The position numbers and the translations under genes are program-made. Positions 16,796-43,982 of a DNA stretch of 64,000 nt are shown one piece after another. Source of the DNA: Alistipes sp. (GTDB taxonomy: Bacteria > Bacteroidota > Bacteroidia > Bacteroidales > Rikenellaceae); NCBI GenBank assembly GCA_017379015.1, contig JAFNXN010000014.1, forward strand, positions 32,779 to 96,778, in the 5' to 3' direction. The notes beneath the pieces were generated by a model. That model made no database searches. It was not told the origin of the DNA and saw nothing but the letters and a program-made list of their open reading frames with translations. Within the stretch, counting starts at the first letter, position 1; each line of letters starts with the position of its first letter.

Positions 16796-16826
16796 TTTGA
16801 GGTCAAGGAAAAAGAGATTACTTTTG
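16796..16826 (+). promoter_or_regulatory. Promoter of the peptide/fimbrillin-like lipoprotein locus
   Basis: TTTG (16796-16799), 19 bp, TACTTTTG (16819-16826): an exact match to TTTG-N19-TAnnTTTG. The predicted start near 16833 gives a GC-rich leader of about 95 nt before the 43-codon ORF. Confidence 0.8.
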
Positions 16827-16927: not shown

Positions 16928-17059
16928 ATGAAAAAGAATTTTTATGTTTCCCCCGAGATTGAGGTGGTGGAGTTTGCTGTTGAGGCGGGTTTCTCGCTCA
17001 GCGGTATTGTAGGTGGTGAGGACTATGGCGATGGTGGCGAAGGCTCCGAGATGGATTAA
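16928..17059 (+). CDS. Short conserved peptide upstream of a surface lipoprotein
   Basis: A 43-codon ORF with ATG, below the usual size cutoff. It lacks a signal peptide and is acidic. Its core Y-V-S-P-E-I-E-V-V-E-F-A-V-E-A-G-F-S is matched by the 42-codon ORF at 43532-43660 (Y-L-A-P-E-L-E-V-L-K-V-T-V-E-Q-G-F-S), a similarity in protein but not DNA sequence that indicates coding. The tail is Gly/Asp/Glu-rich. It lies between a canonical promoter and the lipoprotein start 22 nt downstream. The function is unknown; a leader or partner peptide is inference. Confidence 0.75.
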   Translation: MKKNFYVSPEIEVVEFAVEAGFSLSGIVGGEDYGDGGEGSEMD

Positions 17060-17081: not shown

Positions 17082-18602
17082 ATGAGAAAGATTTTTATTG
17101 CTTTGGCAGCTATTGCTGCTGCGGTGGGTTGTTCTAAGGAGAATGCCCCTATGGAGGTTGTCGAGCACGATAGCTTTATGATGAATGCCTCAATCGTGCT
17201 TGACGACACACGTGTTACGGTTGAGGGTGAGAAGTTTACCGATGTTAAGTGGGTCAAGGGTGACAACGTAGCTCTTAGCTCAGCGGCTGGTGCTTCAGCA
17301 ACCCTTGTTGCTGAGGCTGCGGGCGACACATCTGTTCGCTTTGTGGGCGAGGGTGTTGCTGTGGCTGATGCAGATACCTACTTTGCGATCTATCCTAAGA
17401 TGGAGATCGTTGATGGCATTGCCATGGTTGACCTTATGGCGCAGTCGGGCGATGATGCAGCTGTGCTAGTCTCTAAGGCTCAGGGTAATAGAGGCGAGGC
17501 TATCGATATGACATTCCGTCCAGCTAATGCGCTGTTGCACGTTGCGGTAAGTGGTGTGGAGTCGCTTGCTAAGGCTGAGTTCATGGCCTTTAACGAGGCG
17601 TCACTCCCTCAGGGCTTTGCCTACCTGTTCGAGTCGGAAATGACTCAGAGCTATGGCGAGGTAGCATCATACACTATCGAAAACCCATCTCTCGATGGTT
17701 TCTTCTTCTCGTTGCCTGCCGACCTCGATATGTCAGCTGGTTACGTAGTGCGCCTTACTGATGCTCAGGGCAACATCTGCTCAAAGGCATATAACGGAAA
17801 GATCTTCACAAAGGCTACAACCACACGCGTAGCTATCGAGTGGTCGACCCCATCGGTAACTCTCGGCGCAAAGACTTCGTATAGCTACTATCTGCTTAAC
17901 CAGCCAGCGACGGCTAATAGCTCGGCAAATGACGTTATCTACTTCTCGGGTGACTGCGCCTCTAGCTATGCAGGTATTCAGAATGCCTATATCTCGGAGG
18001 TTGGCTTCAAGGTAGATGGCACAACATATAGCTCAGCAAGTGGCAATGTTACGTGGAATAAGTCTGAGAAGAGCTTCTCGATGGACAATCTAGCTGTGTC
18101 GGAGAAGCGTGGCTACGCTGTTGAAGCATACATCGTAACCAAGGAGCACGGCACAATCACATCTTCTAATACTCTCTATATCACTGGCTTGCCATATACA
18201 CTTAATACGTCAGCAAATGACGGTACTTGGACCGAGAAGGAAAATGTAGCTTGGAACGGCAATTCTGGTGTGAAATTGGGATCTTATCAGTGGGGTGGTG
18301 AAGCCTCTATTCAAAAGTCGGACTTTGTTTTGCCTGCTAACGTAAATATTCAGCTTGTGGGTAGTGGTAAAGTAAACGGAACGGGTTCATGGATTAAGGT
18401 TAAAAATACCGCATCGTATATTGTGTCTGGTAGCACATTGTTTAGCAAGACGGCTAATGGTAATAGTCCTCAGTCGTACAATATCAATGTAACAGGTACT
18501 ATGAGCACATCTAATCCATCAGTAAAGATTAATAGCTCATACAATCTTGAGCAGGCATATGTTATTACCTATTCGTTGAGTATTAACTATAGCAGCAGAT
18601 AA
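17082..18602 (+). CDS. Fimbrillin-like surface lipoprotein
   Basis: A 506-aa lipoprotein. The ATG at 17082 gives a clean signal peptide with lipobox AVGC (Cys17). An in-frame GTG 23 codons upstream would overlap the short peptide gene and spoil the signal, so it was not used. Residues about 25-270 follow the fimbrillin/Mfa-like pattern of Bacteroidales (TRVTVEGEKFTDVKWVKGD, then Ala-rich strands, TYFAIYPKM). Residues about 290-380 and 395-506 are further beta-rich segments rich in Ser/Thr/Asn that I do not recognise. Probable outer-surface adhesin or minor pilus-type component. Confidence 0.75.
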   Translation: MRKIFIALAAIAAAVGCSKENAPMEVVEHDSFMMNASIVLDDTRVTVEGEKFTDVKWVKGDNVALSSAAGASATLVAEAAGDTSVRFVGEGVAVADADTYFAIYPKMEIVDGIAMVDLMAQSGDDAAVLVSKAQGNRGEAIDMTFRPANALLHVAVSGVESLAKAEFMAFNEASLPQGFAYLFESEMTQSYGEVASYTIENPSLDGFFFSLPADLDMSAGYVVRLTDAQGNICSKAYNGKIFTKATTTRVAIEWSTPSVTLGAKTSYSYYLLNQPATANSSANDVIYFSGDCASSYAGIQNAYISEVGFKVDGTTYSSASGNVTWNKSEKSFSMDNLAVSEKRGYAVEAYIVTKEHGTITSSNTLYITGLPYTLNTSANDGTWTEKENVAWNGNSGVKLGSYQWGGEASIQKSDFVLPANVNIQLVGSGKVNGTGSWIKVKNTASYIVSGSTLFSKTANGNSPQSYNINVTGTMSTSNPSVKINSSYNLEQAYVITYSLSINYSSR

Positions 18603-32290: not shown

Positions 32291-33166
32291 ATGAGAACTA
32301 TCCCCTCTTCTGAGCTGATAATCAATGCAGATGGCTCTATTTTTCATCTGCATCTGAAGCCCGAGCAACTTGCCGATGTTGTTATCCTGGTGGGTGATCC
32401 TGGTCGTGTAGCTATGATTGCCGACTATTTCGATAGCAAGGAGTGCGAGGTCTCTAATCGTGAATTTCTAACCGTCACTGGAACATATAAGGGTAAGCGA
32501 ATGACCGTGATGTCTACAGGTATTGGCATCGGTAATATCGACATCTGTGTGACGGAGCTCGATGCCCTTGCCAATATCGACTTCGCAACGCGCCAAGTGA
32601 AGGAGTCGTTCCGTCAGCTTACGCTTGTTCGTCTTGGCACTTCGGGAGCTATTCAGCCTGATATTGAGGTGGGTGAGGTGGTCTTCTCGCGTACGTCACT
32701 CGGCTTCGATGGTCTTTTGTCGTACTACGAGGGTCGTGACTCGGTGTGTGACCTTGAGCTTGAGCGCGCCTTTGAGGAGCATACGGGGTGGTATAAGAAG
32801 CTTCCTGCGCCATACTTTGTTGATGCCCATGCCGACCTCTTCGAGCTATTCAAGGACTCAACGCGTGAGGGTATCACCATCGCTGCACCGGGATTTTATG
32901 CCCCACAGGGTCGCTGGGTGCGCCTAGCCCCACACGATAAGGAGCTCAATGCCAAGATTGAGTCGTTCCGCTTTGGCGAGCGTCGCATCACCAACTTCGA
33001 GATGGAGGGTTCGGCACTTGCGGGTCTTGGTGCGCTGCTTGGTCATCGTGCAGCGACAATATGTACGATCATAGCTCAGCGTGTGGCGAAGGATGCTTGC
33101 ACCGACTACAAACCCTTTGTGCGTCGCATGATCGAGATGGCTCTCGACAAACTTGCAACGTTGTGA
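32291..33166 (+). CDS. Nucleoside phosphorylase (uridine phosphorylase-like)
   Basis: PNP/UDP phosphorylase superfamily, 291 aa, cytosolic. Phosphate-site VGDPGRVAMIADYFD near the N-terminus, LVRLGTSGAIQPD in the middle and the ribose/metal-site NFEMEGSALAGLGALLGH near 237. It splits a nucleoside into base and ribose-1-phosphate for salvage. The length and GDPGRV motif favour the uridine-phosphorylase side, but base specificity is inferred. The stop codon TGA lies inside the first bases (TTGTGATAAGGG) of a partial intergenic repeat. Confidence 0.88.
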   Translation: MRTIPSSELIINADGSIFHLHLKPEQLADVVILVGDPGRVAMIADYFDSKECEVSNREFLTVTGTYKGKRMTVMSTGIGIGNIDICVTELDALANIDFATRQVKESFRQLTLVRLGTSGAIQPDIEVGEVVFSRTSLGFDGLLSYYEGRDSVCDLELERAFEEHTGWYKKLPAPYFVDAHADLFELFKDSTREGITIAAPGFYAPQGRWVRLAPHDKELNAKIESFRFGERRITNFEMEGSALAGLGALLGHRAATICTIIAQRVAKDACTDYKPFVRRMIEMALDKLATL

Positions 33167-40421: not shown

Positions 40422-43400
40422 CTAGAAGTCGTAGCCGACAATTTTACTTTTATAACTAACCCAATATGGTGCACTCTTATATGTACTCACCGAATTTGTA
40501 GGCACATAGATCTTTAAGTCAGATACGTAGGGGGAGAACATGTAGGATCCTCCTACAGTTGGTGGAGTTGTTGACTTGCAGTATACACTTGTCAAATTAC
40601 TGCAATAGAATGCGTAAGTTCCAATAAAGGTGACACTCTCTGGAATGGTTACACTTGTTAGGCTACTGTAGCAACTGAAACTATACGATTTAATCTCAGT
40701 TATATCGCTTGTTATAACAAGTTCTGTTACCAATTCATTATTAAGGTAGAGATTTTCGGCGTAATATAGAGGGTTTGAATTCATCTCCTTAAAGTCTATT
40801 TTACACCAAGCTGGTAGATCAGTAATATTTACACTTGTTAGACCACTGCAACCTGAGAATGCAGACTCATCAATCGAAGTTACGCCATTGCCCATAGTTA
40901 CACTTGTTAGGCTACTACATCCGTTGAATGCCCACCCTCCAATCAATGTCACGTTATCGGGAATGGTTACGCTTGTCAGACTACTGCAACCTGAAAATGC
41001 AGACTTTCCAATCGTTGTTACGCTATCAGAAATAGTTACATTTGTTATGCTGCTACATCCATAGAATGCAGACTTTCCAATCGTTGTTACGCCTTCTCCG
41101 ATAGTCACAGATGTAAATTTAGAACTGGCAAATACACCAGACGAAGAATCAACAGATGGAATGTTGCAGTTAACAATCAACTCACCTGTGCAATCACTGA
41201 ATGCAGAATATCCAATCGCTTTTACGCCTTTACCAATAGTTATACTTGTTAGGCTACTGCAACCATAGAATGCACTCTCACCAATGCTCGTTACACTATC
41301 AGGAATAGTGATACTTGTTAGTGTGCTGCATCTGTTGAATGCACTAGACCCAATCGAAGTAACGCTATCTGGGATAGTGATGCTTGTTATACTGCACTCT
41401 CTAAATGCACTATTACCAATAGTAGTCACGTCATTGTCAAACTGTATTACCCAACACTCTTTATCTGAATCATATAGGTTTGAAACTATGTTTGCACCAA
41501 ATGCATCGGTTTTATATGGTTTTGTTGATTTAGTTGTACTACCATTAGTATACCAAATCTGAGTGTTTGTAGATTCTGACGTTTCTGGCACTACCTCGCC
41601 CTTTTCAAAGTCATAGGCTACAATAATAACATTAATATCTGCACAATCTTTCCAATATGACGCACTCCTGTATGCGCTAATCGACTCTGCTGGCACATAA
41701 ACAGTAATAACTGATGTATTATTATTTGAAAATATACCACTAACCGTTGGAGGTGTTTTAGCCTTACAATATACACTTGTCAAACTACTACAATCAACGA
41801 ATGCCCAACTATTAATGCTTGTTACGCTATCTGGGATAGTGATGCTTGTTAGGCTACTGCAACCACGAAATGCCTCAGATCCAATGCTCGTTACACTATC
41901 AGGAATAGTGATATTTGTTAGGTTACTGCAATCACGGAATACTCTTTCTCCAATATAGGTCACGCTATCTGGGATAGTGATGTCTGTTAGATTTCTGCAA
42001 CCTTCGAATGTGTTATATTTAATTCCTGTTACACCTTTTCCAATAGTTACACTTGTTAAACCACTGCAACCTTCGAATGCTCTTCCCCCAATCGTAGTTA
42101 TACTATCAGGAATTGTAATGCTTGTCAAAGTTTTGAAATAAGAGAATGCAAGTTCTCCTATTGAAGTAACGCTATCAGGAATTATAACACTTGTCACACT
42201 ACTACAAGAACCGAATGCACACTCTCCAATCGTAGTTACGCTATCGGGGATAGTATATTCGGTTAATTCTGCAGAAGCAAATGCAATGAGTGTTCCGTCA
42301 TCAATTAGGCATCTACCATCTTGAGATGCAAATTTACTGCTAAATGATTTTAAACTATTGCATCCTTCGAATGCACCTTTTTCAATCCATCTAATACTAT
42401 CTGGAATAGTTATACTTGTTAGGCTGTCGCAACAACAGAATGCACACTCACCAATGTAAGTTACATCACTATCAAATGTGATAACCCAACACTCCTTCTT
42501 AGCATCGTATACGTTTGATACGATTTTTGCACCAAATACAGCAGTTTCCCAAGGCGTTGTAGGCTCTGTTGTGCTACCATTAGTATAGAATATCTCATTA
42601 CTTGCAGGTTTATATACTATCTTAACGAACTCAGCTTCTAAGCTAGCCATAGGCTGAATTACATTACGTTCGATAACAAGCTCGTTAGTTGTTGAGAGAG
42701 TCAATATCTCGTAGCCATCACTTTCGATATCTACTGTAAAACCATTAGCAAAGGTCTGAGGTGGTAGCGAGAGGTAGAAGTTTGTAACCTCTTCGCCAAG
42801 TGTTACGCCCTCGCCGCAGTCAAGAGTCAGCTCTGTAAGAATAGTGTCGTCGAAGACAAGGTTGCCGCCAGCATTGTTGTCGTCAGCGTCGCCCATCTCT
42901 GATGCGAGTGTTGCCTCAGCAGTGGCTGTGTCTACATGGATAAGACCAGCAACCTGCTCCTCGTTGTTACCACGAAACTTAATGCTCTTAACAACCTCAC
43001 CATTACCTGTAAGTTGCAACTTCAGCCAACCGCAAACGCTCTTTAGCGAGAACTGAGTAAACTCACTTTGTGACACCATCAGGTTACTACCAACGCCGTA
43101 GCTATCCTTAGCATAACTCTGTGTTGCAGAAAGCGTTGCCTCGATATTGCCAGTGGTTGTTGAAATTGCATAGTCTGCACTATATGGATATGCCATGACT
43201 ACATAATCCATGTCACGACTTGCTGTGCCGGCATCAACGCGATAAAGTTCTGCTACTTGCTCGCCAGTCTCGCCGCGGTACTCCCACTTCTGATTAGCAT
43301 TGCTCTTATAAAATACTGATACCAAGTCGTTCTTGGTCCAAACGGTTTTTCGCGCCTCGTTAAGCTGAATGCGTGTCTGATCTCCATCCTCGAAGCCTAC

Positions 43401-43511
43401 GGTAAGAGTCTCAGGGGTATCAACATTGACGCCCTGCTGCTCCTCGATAATAATCTGTGTACACGCTGCAAAGGCAAATATAGCGCATACAAAAAATAGT
43501 AGTTTTTTCAT
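40422..43511 (-). CDS. BspA-like leucine-rich-repeat surface lipoprotein
   Basis: 1029-aa lipoprotein (lipobox FAAC, Cys17). The start is the ATG at 43511; an in-frame TTG ten codons upstream overlaps the short peptide gene. Residues about 25-310 are a fimbrillin-like domain. Two similar modules follow, each with a cap (IWYTNGSTT or IFYTNGSTT, then KECWVI-FD-DVT-IG), an LRR_5 array (ITIPDSVTSIG-AF-CSSLTS repeats of about 23 residues) and an end cap (VYCK-TPPTV...YVP...YW). BspA-type LRRs often bind host or bacterial surfaces. The DNA is visibly more AT-rich than the neighbours. Confidence 0.87.
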   Translation of the reverse strand: MKKLLFFVCAIFAFAACTQIIIEEQQGVNVDTPETLTVGFEDGDQTRIQLNEARKTVWTKNDLVSVFYKSNANQKWEYRGETGEQVAELYRVDAGTASRDMDYVVMAYPYSADYAISTTTGNIEATLSATQSYAKDSYGVGSNLMVSQSEFTQFSLKSVCGWLKLQLTGNGEVVKSIKFRGNNEEQVAGLIHVDTATAEATLASEMGDADDNNAGGNLVFDDTILTELTLDCGEGVTLGEEVTNFYLSLPPQTFANGFTVDIESDGYEILTLSTTNELVIERNVIQPMASLEAEFVKIVYKPASNEIFYTNGSTTEPTTPWETAVFGAKIVSNVYDAKKECWVITFDSDVTYIGECAFCCCDSLTSITIPDSIRWIEKGAFEGCNSLKSFSSKFASQDGRCLIDDGTLIAFASAELTEYTIPDSVTTIGECAFGSCSSVTSVIIPDSVTSIGELAFSYFKTLTSITIPDSITTIGGRAFEGCSGLTSVTIGKGVTGIKYNTFEGCRNLTDITIPDSVTYIGERVFRDCSNLTNITIPDSVTSIGSEAFRGCSSLTSITIPDSVTSINSWAFVDCSSLTSVYCKAKTPPTVSGIFSNNNTSVITVYVPAESISAYRSASYWKDCADINVIIVAYDFEKGEVVPETSESTNTQIWYTNGSTTKSTKPYKTDAFGANIVSNLYDSDKECWVIQFDNDVTTIGNSAFRECSITSITIPDSVTSIGSSAFNRCSTLTSITIPDSVTSIGESAFYGCSSLTSITIGKGVKAIGYSAFSDCTGELIVNCNIPSVDSSSGVFASSKFTSVTIGEGVTTIGKSAFYGCSSITNVTISDSVTTIGKSAFSGCSSLTSVTIPDNVTLIGGWAFNGCSSLTSVTMGNGVTSIDESAFSGCSGLTSVNITDLPAWCKIDFKEMNSNPLYYAENLYLNNELVTELVITSDITEIKSYSFSCYSSLTSVTIPESVTFIGTYAFYCSNLTSVYCKSTTPPTVGGSYMFSPYVSDLKIYVPTNSVSTYKSAPYWVSYKSKIVGYDF

Positions 43512-43531: not shown

Positions 43532-43660
43532 TTATTTCCAATCCTGCTCAGGGTTCTCTACTGGGTCTTCAAGAGTTGACTGAGAAAATCCTTGCTCTAC
43601 AGTGACTTTCAATACCTCTAATTCGGGGGCGAGGTAGCCCTCTAGATTTGTTTTTTGCAT
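43532..43660 (-). CDS. Short conserved peptide upstream of the LRR lipoprotein
   Basis: A 42-codon ORF, below the usual size cutoff, ending 20 nt before the LRR lipoprotein ATG. Its core Y-L-A-P-E-L-E-V-L-K-V-T-V-E-Q-G-F-S-Q-S matches that of the peptide at 16928-17059 at 11 of 20 positions, although the DNA differs. The tail is acidic (EDPVENPEQDW). It has no signal peptide. The shared arrangement (promoter, peptide, about 20 nt, fimbrillin-type lipoprotein) argues for a coupled function such as translational leader, chaperone or signalling peptide; unproven. Confidence 0.72.
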   Translation of the reverse strand: MQKTNLEGYLAPELEVLKVTVEQGFSQSTLEDPVENPEQDWK

Positions 43661-43982
43661 AGAATGTTATGTTTTGAGTTAATTAATTATTGCTCAAAAC
43701 CATACAACTCCTATATGGTGGGGTATATATAAAAAAGAAAGTGTGGAGTTGATTCCGTTTATCTCTAAGAAGGCTCTGACAAAACCCAAGCAAAAACAAA
43801 CGATACAATGCCCCACACTTGGATAGTATGGGGTGTATGCACAAAGAGGTGCATAGCCACACATAGCTATACAAGAAATGAGTGCTGTTCGTTATCCTTT
43901 TGCTTTTTGAAAACTGTCAGATTTTCTTAGAAGGACTGCGAAAACACTTTCAATATGTCACTATTCTATCTGAATAGTGTTA

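Follow-up and report, generated by a model that had tools for sequence, protein, structure and literature searches.

Small YxxP peptides paired with fimbrillin-type lipoproteins in ruminant-gut Alistipes: a probable Bacteroidales counterpart of linear polyphosphorylated peptides

We examined a 64,000-nucleotide stretch (the window) of the genome of Alistipes sp., a member of the Rikenellaceae (GenBank assembly GCA_017379015.1, contig JAFNXN010000014.1, forward-strand positions 32,779 to 96,778), in which two short open reading frames (ORFs), encoding peptides 1 and 2, each precede a gene for a lipoprotein with a fimbrillin-like N-terminal domain (N-domain). An original prediction, made from the sequence of the window, had proposed that these ORFs belong to one family, share a motif and lie 20–22 nt before their lipoproteins. 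The coordinates and lengths of both ORFs are as predicted (Table 1), the common motif holds exactly as first stated, and the lipoprotein ATG codons lie 22 nt past peptide 1 and 20 nt past peptide 2. Chance had been judged an unlikely source of the pair. Exactly two ORFs of 25–120 aa in the window, those of peptides 1 and 2, match Y-x2-P-x9-E-x-G-[FYI]-x2-S, and chance ORFs are rejected because the motif is absent from all 200 mononucleotide shuffles of the window. A Bacteroidota promoter had also been predicted upstream, and this stands for peptide 1 alone: by eye we read there the box TACTTTTG, which we take to be of the Bacteroidota TAnnTTTG type. No TAnnTTTG box was seen by eye close upstream of peptide 2, where a 159-nt structured element lies instead. 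Both lipoproteins are matched by a profile of the N-domain (G000:C25:49860 for lipoprotein 1 and G000:C25:75819 for lipoprotein 2), the profile having been built with lipoprotein 1 included. Lipoprotein 1 has no Pfam family above its cut-off, and lipoprotein 2 matches LRR_5 in Pfam with E=5e-137.

Table 1. Positions in the window of the two peptides, their lipoproteins and the elements upstream; leader and core assignments are proposals.
Feature	Position	Strand	Description
Promoter box, TAnnTTTG type	16819..16826	+	TACTTTTG; upstream of peptide 1, read by eye
Precursor peptide 1	16928..17059	+	43 aa, MKKNFYVSPEIEVVEFAVEAGFSLSGIVGGEDYGDGGEGSEMD; ORF reading
Proposed leader of peptide 1			residues 1-22 (..YVSPEIEVVEFAVEAGF)
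Proposed core of peptide 1			residues 23-43 (SLSGIVGGEDYGDGGEGSEMD); invariant Ser is S25
Cognate lipoprotein 1	17082..18602	+	506 aa; signal peptide end AAAVGC; fimbrillin-like N-domain (TR..W..GD)
Cognate lipoprotein 2	40422..43511	-	1029 aa; lipobox ..FAFAAC; fimbrillin-like N-domain; BspA-type LRR_5 repeats
Precursor peptide 2	43532..43660	-	42 aa, MQKTNLEGYLAPELEVLKVTVEQGFSQSTLEDPVENPEQDWK; ORF reading
Proposed leader of peptide 2			residues 1-25 (..YLAPELEVLKVTVEQGF)
Proposed core of peptide 2			residues 26-42 (SQSTLEDPVENPEQDWK); invariant Ser is S28
159-nt structured 5' leader element	43665..43823	-	mutually exclusive pairings, attenuator-like; upstream of peptide 2

The suggestion that these ORFs form a genuine class of leader or partner peptides is borne out. 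The family is under purifying selection and occurs in 33 of 37 genomes of its genus, a ruminant-gut Rikenellaceae/"Alistipes" lineage whose genomes are fragmented and mostly less than 95% complete. The genome that contains the window (1.71 Mb, 78% complete; hereafter the own genome) gave six matches with peptide 1 as the query and seven with a family profile, and all seven members are followed by a lipoprotein, 13–34 nt on with the start codons adopted here. The family is present at E<=0.01 in 35 of 61 relatives searched, namely the 33 genus members (own genome included) and 2 of 24 genomes from other families, with as many as 21 copies per genome. An order-wide sample gave matches at E<=0.001 in 11 of 295 genomes (own included), with nine families represented. 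Named homologues come mainly from ruminant-gut metagenome-assembled genomes labelled Alistipes sp.; other labels are Rikenellaceae, Bacteroides sp., Bacteroidales bacterium and, once, Lachnospira. Curated libraries do not name the family: among 60 members the best E-values are 0.04 in Pfam and 0.019 in NCBIfam, neither significant. A phage origin was rejected, there being no phage match and no confirmed member among the 84 stretches of viral contigs that fit the pattern. At one locus (L038, in G018:C73) another small ORF, MKKIYIKPICVEMHIDTMQMLAMSGNAPDSDDSEFG.., comes immediately after a family peptide; its leader is different and its tail very similar, and it may connect the family with a broader group of Bacteroidales small ORFs that carry a KxYxxP motif.

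Our main collection of 117 loci consists of the top-ranked matches listed in the search of relatives plus the seven own-genome loci and is not a random sample. The loci were assembled as a set of 36 (seven from the own genome and 29 from the search of relatives) and then 80 more, roughly by rank; a local hidden Markov model (HMM) gave 119 family ORFs, besides one weak match that was left out, and removal of two duplicates brought these to 117. A lipoprotein gene lies downstream of the peptide in 111 of 117 loci, and within 100 nt in 109 (the script scored 109 within 200 nt and 107 within 100 nt, and L121 and L092, with gaps of 17 and 12 nt, were added by eye). The gap has a median of 22 nt over the 109 scored loci and is 9–49 nt in 100 of them. 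One of the six exceptions, L054, is cut by a contig end 29 nt on; the other five (L019, L036, L039, L076 and L110) have no downstream lipoprotein, and in L019 the peptide is 3' of a lipoprotein gene. Two tail-less copies, L110 and L201, end exactly at the invariant Ser discussed below, and neither has a lipoprotein. A scan of named genomes, partly covering the same loci, found a lipoprotein after 35 of 37 peptides. As background, in a 473-kb stretch that includes the window and hence peptides 1 and 2, a lipoprotein follows within 100 nt after 15 of 944 small ORFs and, among the 415 that reach 150 aa or more, after 14. In the reverse direction, a peptide lies upstream of 23 of the 30 best N-domain matches in four genomes (7/7 in the own genome, 4/8, 6/8 and 6/7 in the others); this share is biased upwards because the N-domain profile was built from peptide-linked lipoproteins. 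At one locus (L101, G020:C7:360231 onward) two tandem precursors are followed by two tandem N-domain lipoproteins, so that the copy numbers match.

The predicted enrichment of homologues before lipoprotein genes thus holds in the genus; it is not confined to lipoproteins, as some copies elsewhere follow genes for proteins with a type IX secretion system (T9SS) sorting domain. G044, a genome from another family, has 12 peptides, of which 11 precede a lipoprotein and one is truncated by the end of its contig. The association is looser in other families: a lipoprotein follows in G244 (2/3), G149 (2/2), G249 (4 of 5 read, of 7), G294 (1/1) and G074 (1/1), the peptide of G202 overlaps a lipoprotein, and none follows in G055 (0/3), G275 (0/3) or G329 (0/1). 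Several of these exceptions in other Bacteroidales families lie directly after a gene whose product ends in a T9SS sorting domain. The Pfam family Por_Secre_tail is above its cut-off in the gene upstream of L124 (G055) and, further off, at L148 (G202); it is below the cut-off in the genes upstream of L127 (G055), L159 and L167 (both G275), and Pfam did not find it upstream of L149, L164 or L153. The position of peptides 3' of sorting-domain genes suggests that the partner need not be a lipoprotein.

Complete partner lipoproteins are 271–1113 aa long, and many carry LRR_5 repeats and some CBM26 or Big_2 domains. They share with the Bacteroidales fimbrillin lipoproteins (Mfa_like_1 and relatives) a signal peptide followed by Cys and the TR..W..GD N-domain. 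However, Pfam recognises Mfa_like_1 in only 9 of 65 partners and Mfa_like_2 in one; 56 of the 65 miss Mfa_like_1 at E 0.001, 19 have BspA-type LRR_5 repeats and a few have CBM26 or Ig-like domains. Judged by their domains, many partners are probably not simple pilins. Literature searches on small proteins upstream of fimbrillins, and on StsA, found nothing bearing on the peptides.

The precursors are 36–55 aa long after refinement of their starts, apart from one tail-less copy of 28 aa. Each consists of a constant half, which runs from Y-x-x-P to an invariant Ser and by its pattern is a candidate leader of the kind found in ribosomally synthesized and post-translationally modified peptides (RiPPs), and of a variable C-terminal part. 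The leader consensus is YxxP(E)x(E)V..x.VExGF[AS]xS. The residues Y, P, E, G and S are invariant in all 60 aligned members, and the spacing of Y and the invariant Ser is fixed at 20 residues, with no indel, in 117 of 117 precursors. The residue two before Ser is A in 69 of these, S in 21, E in 10 and T in 7, and G-F-A-Q-S occurs in 14. The part after the Ser (0–24 aa, median 15) has many E, G, D, P, N and W residues, hardly any K or R (25 in all) and no Cys, and is very acidic, with a median net charge of -5. The ratio of nonsynonymous to synonymous substitution rates (dN/dS) is 0.17 for the leader and 0.14 for the tail, with high dS, in 86 pairs of related peptides, values that are biased downwards because the pairs were picked by peptide similarity. 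When pairs are picked instead by similarity of the lipoprotein N-domain, dN/dS is 0.25–0.27 for the leader and 0.06–0.10 for the tail, the tail values being saturated at one of three thresholds. The overall span of about 0.06–0.27 is well short of the neutral value of 1 that had been named beforehand as refuting the family.

The variable part of the peptide tracks the N-domain of its lipoprotein. We compared 94 of the 117 loci, those with a lipoprotein within 100 nt of which at least 330 aa could be read and with both motif and lipobox present. Tail similarity is correlated with that of the N-domain (Spearman 0.18) and of the signal peptide (0.15), each with 0 of 999 permutations as high, whereas the leader hardly tracks the lipoprotein (0.08, 37/999, for the N-domain; 0.03, 256/999, for the signal peptide). 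The region beyond the N-domain adds little to the tail correlation once the N-domain is given (partial correlation 0.04). Where the N-domains are alike but the leaders are not (50 pairs, mean leader identity 0.57), the mean core similarity is 0.62; where instead the leaders are alike (mean identity 0.81) but the N-domains are not (127 pairs), it is 0.10. The pairs are not independent. Recent joint conversion does not account for the tracking, since the tail has diverged at synonymous sites at least as much as the leader has. Linkage combined with selection on each gene alone is a possible source of it.

This anatomy resembles that of the linear polyphosphorylated peptides (LPPs), known from the lpp cluster of Paenibacillus alginolyticus (PMC13381572, Nat Commun 2026). 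According to that paper, LPP biosynthesis involves a discrete RiPP recognition element (RRE), LppB; an HprK-like protein, LppK; a SipW-like protein with Ser, His and Asp motifs, LppS; a nucleoside triphosphate (NTP) transferase, LppN; and the MsbA-like LppD. The precursors have a YxxPxVLxHQxIxFETxxS leader and variable C-termini. LppA, in which Y is at -16, is cleaved after F-E-T to leave a core beginning A-Q-S, the Ser at core position 3 is polyphosphorylated, and an S3T variant is not. The paper calls LPPs "restricted to the Bacillota", leaves their role unknown and describes patchy, conflict-like phyletic patterns. We dropped a cut after the invariant Ser, as the (-3,-1) rule would place it, and adopted from the LppA site a cut between G-F and [A/S]-x-S; the boundary in peptide 1 is inferred from LppA. 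The proposed cores then have a median length of 18 aa (range 3–27). Two cores in G044 carry Thr in place of the invariant Ser, and an enzyme like LppK would not phosphorylate them, given the unmodified S3T variant described in PMC13381572.

Y-x-x-P is also the motif bound by the RREs of lasso peptides, as PMC12710340 describes, and 6 of 60 family members weakly match the HMM of paeninodin-type lasso peptides (NF033524, best E 0.019). We therefore searched for the RRE family PqqD (PF05402). Among the 61 relatives, PqqD is found in 34 of 35 peptide-bearing genomes (own included) and 13 of 26 peptide-free ones. Within the genus it is missing from G007, G009, G012, G013 and G036, and the members without peptides are exactly the first four of these. 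All 16 aligned PqqD sequences retain the Asn of [LF]N and a later Asp, probably equivalent to N33 and D70 of LppB. A putative kinase, searched with a profile built from proteins of G044, G055 and G034, has strong matches (E<1e-60, a cut set afterwards) in 31 of 35 peptide-bearing genomes and 0 of 26 others, and a putative peptidase occurs in 31 of 35 and in 1 of 26 (G048; some genus matches are no stronger). At the limits used in the respective searches (E<=0.001 for the kinase), Fisher's exact test gives p values of 1e-10 for the kinase, 6e-12 for the peptidase and 2e-5 for PqqD, the genomes not being independent. In the order-wide sample the kinase is found in 7 of 10 peptide-bearing and 30 of 284 peptide-free genomes at the limit of the search (p 3e-5), or 6 of 10 and 11 of 284 at E<1e-30, a cut chosen afterwards (p 3e-6). 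The peptidase keeps its Ser, His and Asp motifs, probably equivalent to the LppS residues, in 8 of 8 aligned sequences; it scores 44.2 of the 51.85 bits required for sigpep_I_arch, and Peptidase_S24 is just above its cut-off for the L322 protein. It is a candidate signal peptidase of the archaeal (SipW-like) type. Matches to PDB structures all have E>0.005 and point to ABC and PEPCK P-loops for the kinase, TrkA, PqqC/D and TfuB1 for PqqD, and SEC11A for the peptidase.

In the genus the genes for an exporter, the kinase and the peptidase lie in a row, with an ATP-binding cassette (ABC) exporter of 565–573 aa beside the kinase in 11 of 12 loci; longer ORFs overlap and obscure the exporter and peptidase frames at L321 and the kinase frame at L325. 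Pfam checks of genus loci were positive for three exporters and one peptidase and negative for one kinase. A recB-like gene is upstream in 10 of the 12 loci, and downstream lie tsf (seven loci), ispF (three) or another gene (two), names assigned by eye with one of each confirmed in Pfam. PqqD stands beside recQ in four of the five main-type PqqD loci examined in the genus. G055 has a precursor 38 nt ahead of consecutive kinase, peptidase, PqqD, NTP_transf_5 and ABC exporter genes, and in G044 the order is PqqD, ABC exporter, kinase, peptidase. The NTP transferase of G055 was recognised by Pfam (PF14907), and those of G114 and G218 from their sequences. Precursors are dispersed in the genus, and G055 is the one genome in which, among the loci read, a member of the family adjoins the enzyme genes. 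At L348 (G274) a 72-aa ORF, MKTKIQNKKIYSKPLLEVIDVD.., lies between PqqD and an HprK-like kinase gene and may be a more distantly related YxxP precursor that resides within the cluster. In the own genome (L273 7843-8569, G000:C28) PqqD is followed by genes for a His-rich 145-aa protein, a TonB-dependent receptor-like protein and an HMA-type protein, as named by eye.

Compared with LPPs as described in PMC13381572, the genes identified here encode probable counterparts of the discrete RRE, HprK-like kinase, SipW-like Ser-His-Asp peptidase and MsbA-like exporter and, in G055, G114 and G218, of the NTP transferase. The precursors are likewise short, with a constant YxxP leader, a variable C-terminus and a Ser at proposed core position 3, and their 36–55 aa fit the LPP criterion of 35–200 aa with YxxP. 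However, they belong to Bacteroidales rather than Bacillota, are dispersed in up to 21 copies per genome, have cores that are very acidic and of median length 18 aa compared with 45 in LppA, and have as partner a surface lipoprotein with which the core covaries. Literature searches, covering titles and the starts of abstracts, found no report of this system besides the LPP paper. Paeninodin-type lasso peptides share a [YW]xxPx[LIV] leader, PqqD/B1, an HprK-like kinase, an NTP transferase and an ABC exporter, and differ in the conserved Ser and the end of the leader. Membership among lasso peptides is judged unlikely from the weak HMM matches and from the absence, by eye beside PqqD or the kinase and with no genome-wide search, of a recognisable transglutaminase-type B2 protein or lasso cyclase. 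The GG-leader/C39 RiPPs of Bacteroidales (PMC10352776) and the bacteroidetocins also have short ribosomal precursors and ABC export, and occur in the same taxonomic order. However, the present family lacks the GG motif and has another exporter and peptidase, a gene set that the part of PMC10352776 available does not describe.

From the gene family, its selection, its pairing, the co-occurrence and the conserved motifs, all directly observed, we conclude with a probability of roughly 0.74 that the peptides are RiPP-like precursors, a Bacteroidales counterpart of the LPPs, encoded at dispersed sites, matured in trans and each paired with a fimbrillin-type lipoprotein. PqqD would bind the leader at Y-x-x-P-x-[ILV], the kinase would phosphorylate the invariant Ser at core residue 3, the peptidase would cut after G-F and the exporter would carry the acidic core out of the cytoplasm. 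A single maturation set would serve many precursors. Once outside, the core would work with or on its cognate surface lipoprotein, or in some other families perhaps on a T9SS-secreted protein.

Several observations weigh against this interpretation. Expression, phosphorylation, cleavage and export of the peptides are predictions from the genes. The exact YxxPxVLxHQxIxFETxxS of the LPPs does not occur here (there is no HQ, and GF replaces FET), and Y and Ser are 20 rather than 19 residues apart. The name of the kinase reflects weak similarity: it is a P-loop protein with no Pfam family above cut-off, scoring 19 of 200 bits for HprK_rel_A in G055 and resembling PEPCK families in G044. Both the 1e-60 and the 1e-30 kinase cuts were chosen after the values were seen, and at E<=0.001 the count is 31 of 35 versus 2 of 26, with weak matches in G048 and G038. 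In G048, which has no peptide, weak kinase and peptidase matches lie beside PqqD on one contig. Conversely, G032, G033 and G036 have peptides without the kinase (G033 has the peptidase, and G036 also lacks PqqD), and G010 has the kinase without the peptidase. The ten peptide-bearing genomes of the order-wide sample divide into six with a strong kinase match, one with a weak match and three with none, and 11 of 284 peptide-free genomes have a strong match. PqqD lies apart from the kinase operon in the genus, and the kinase operons read there showed no recognisable NTP transferase, with no genome-wide search made. It may be that the four genus members without peptides form a single clade. Finally, the own genome has PqqD and no kinase, no peptidase and only a 28%-identical exporter; because it is 78% complete, one missing region could explain these absences.

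The weakest link is the action on the lipoprotein, since a paired core could equally be sensed or neutralised by it. Peptides with LPP-like maturation might be independent secreted products, such as bacteriocins or signals, with the lipoprotein as immunity protein, receptor or decoy. This explanation would suit the frequent presence of immunity lipoproteins in RiPP operons, and the cores are diverse, each found with one lipoprotein subfamily. Typical killing peptides, in contrast, are unlike the short, very acidic and Cys-free tails of this family. Partners of such length, with their LRR_5, CBM26 and Big_2 domains, and the large number of precursors per genome also argue against it, whereas the patchy, conflict-like phyletic patterns reported in PMC13381572 argue for it; on balance we consider free products unlikely. 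The LPP-like reading can be taken further, tentatively, to a form of surface labelling in which one maturation and export set turns up to about 20 precursors per genome into phosphorylated acidic peptides, each bound or fixed to the N-domain of its own lipoprotein (or to T9SS cargo) and completing, capping or tuning an adhesin; we regard this extension as plausible and somewhat short of an even chance.

The original prediction had offered translational coupling, a chaperone or a signal secreted without classical export as functions. The tight spacing and the placement of the ORF ahead of the lipoprotein gene, to which the genus shows few exceptions (L019 among them), would suit a regulatory leader whose translation sets the lipoprotein level while the peptide itself does little. 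However, purifying selection on the amino acids of both halves, the indel-free Y-to-Ser spacing, the co-occurrence with peptide-processing genes and the location of some peptides 3' of a secreted-protein gene in other families make such a leader very improbable. We give equally little credence to an unprocessed cytoplasmic partner, a chaperone or targeting factor whose link to PqqD, the kinase and the peptidase would reflect shared descent and not function. The tracking of the N-domain by the C-terminal part fits such a partner, as does the possibility that the peptide-free genus members form one clade, yet the kinase recurs with peptides in G044, G055, G149, G244, G249 and G294, which represent other families or genera, the peptidase recurs in G044 and G055, the G055 precursor lies just ahead of the enzyme run, and the leader grammar is close to that of LPPs. 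Coupling and chaperone functions are therefore not favoured. Secretion without classical export came closest of the three guesses, without the RRE, kinase, signal peptidase and ABC exporter route of the LPP kind having been proposed.

The 159-nt element upstream of peptide 2 lies in a 173-nt stretch with a fold z-score of -3.9. Rfam 15 has no match in the window at gathering thresholds, and at E<=5 it gives six matches in five loci, the best with E 0.74 and none credible. A covariance model finds copies in 42 of the 61 genomes, as many as 30 in a single one. They precede 20 of 117 peptide loci (at L081 the 3' half only; L035 was left out as a chance match) and also other genes, so the element is not specific to the peptides and a peptide-specific role was rejected. 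At 18 of 20 non-peptide loci read, a start codon lies no more than 34 nt from the 3' end of the element, and the products of 14 of these 18 genes look exported by eye. The element has three possible pairings that exclude one another (1:2, 2:3 with a U-run after it, and 3:4) and so resembles a transcription attenuator. Among 34 copies, 93.8% of cells are paired and 11 pairs have changed on both sides, with 0 of 500 shuffles as high, in an alignment that was fitted to the structure. The element is possibly a new cis-regulatory RNA regulon of the genus.

If the LPP-like reading is correct, the LPP family, in 2026 known from Bacillota only and with no known role, extends to another phylum, and an explanation is at hand for a group of very small genes without a name in curated libraries. 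The usual RiPP layout of one cluster for one product would be turned round, with up to about 20 dispersed precursors per genome, most of them tied to a surface protein. There would also be a direct handle on function, as the partner can be read from the genome. Surface labelling, if true, would be the first biological role for LPP-type RiPPs, with the peptide acting as a paired, co-evolving subunit of a surface protein rather than as a free natural product.
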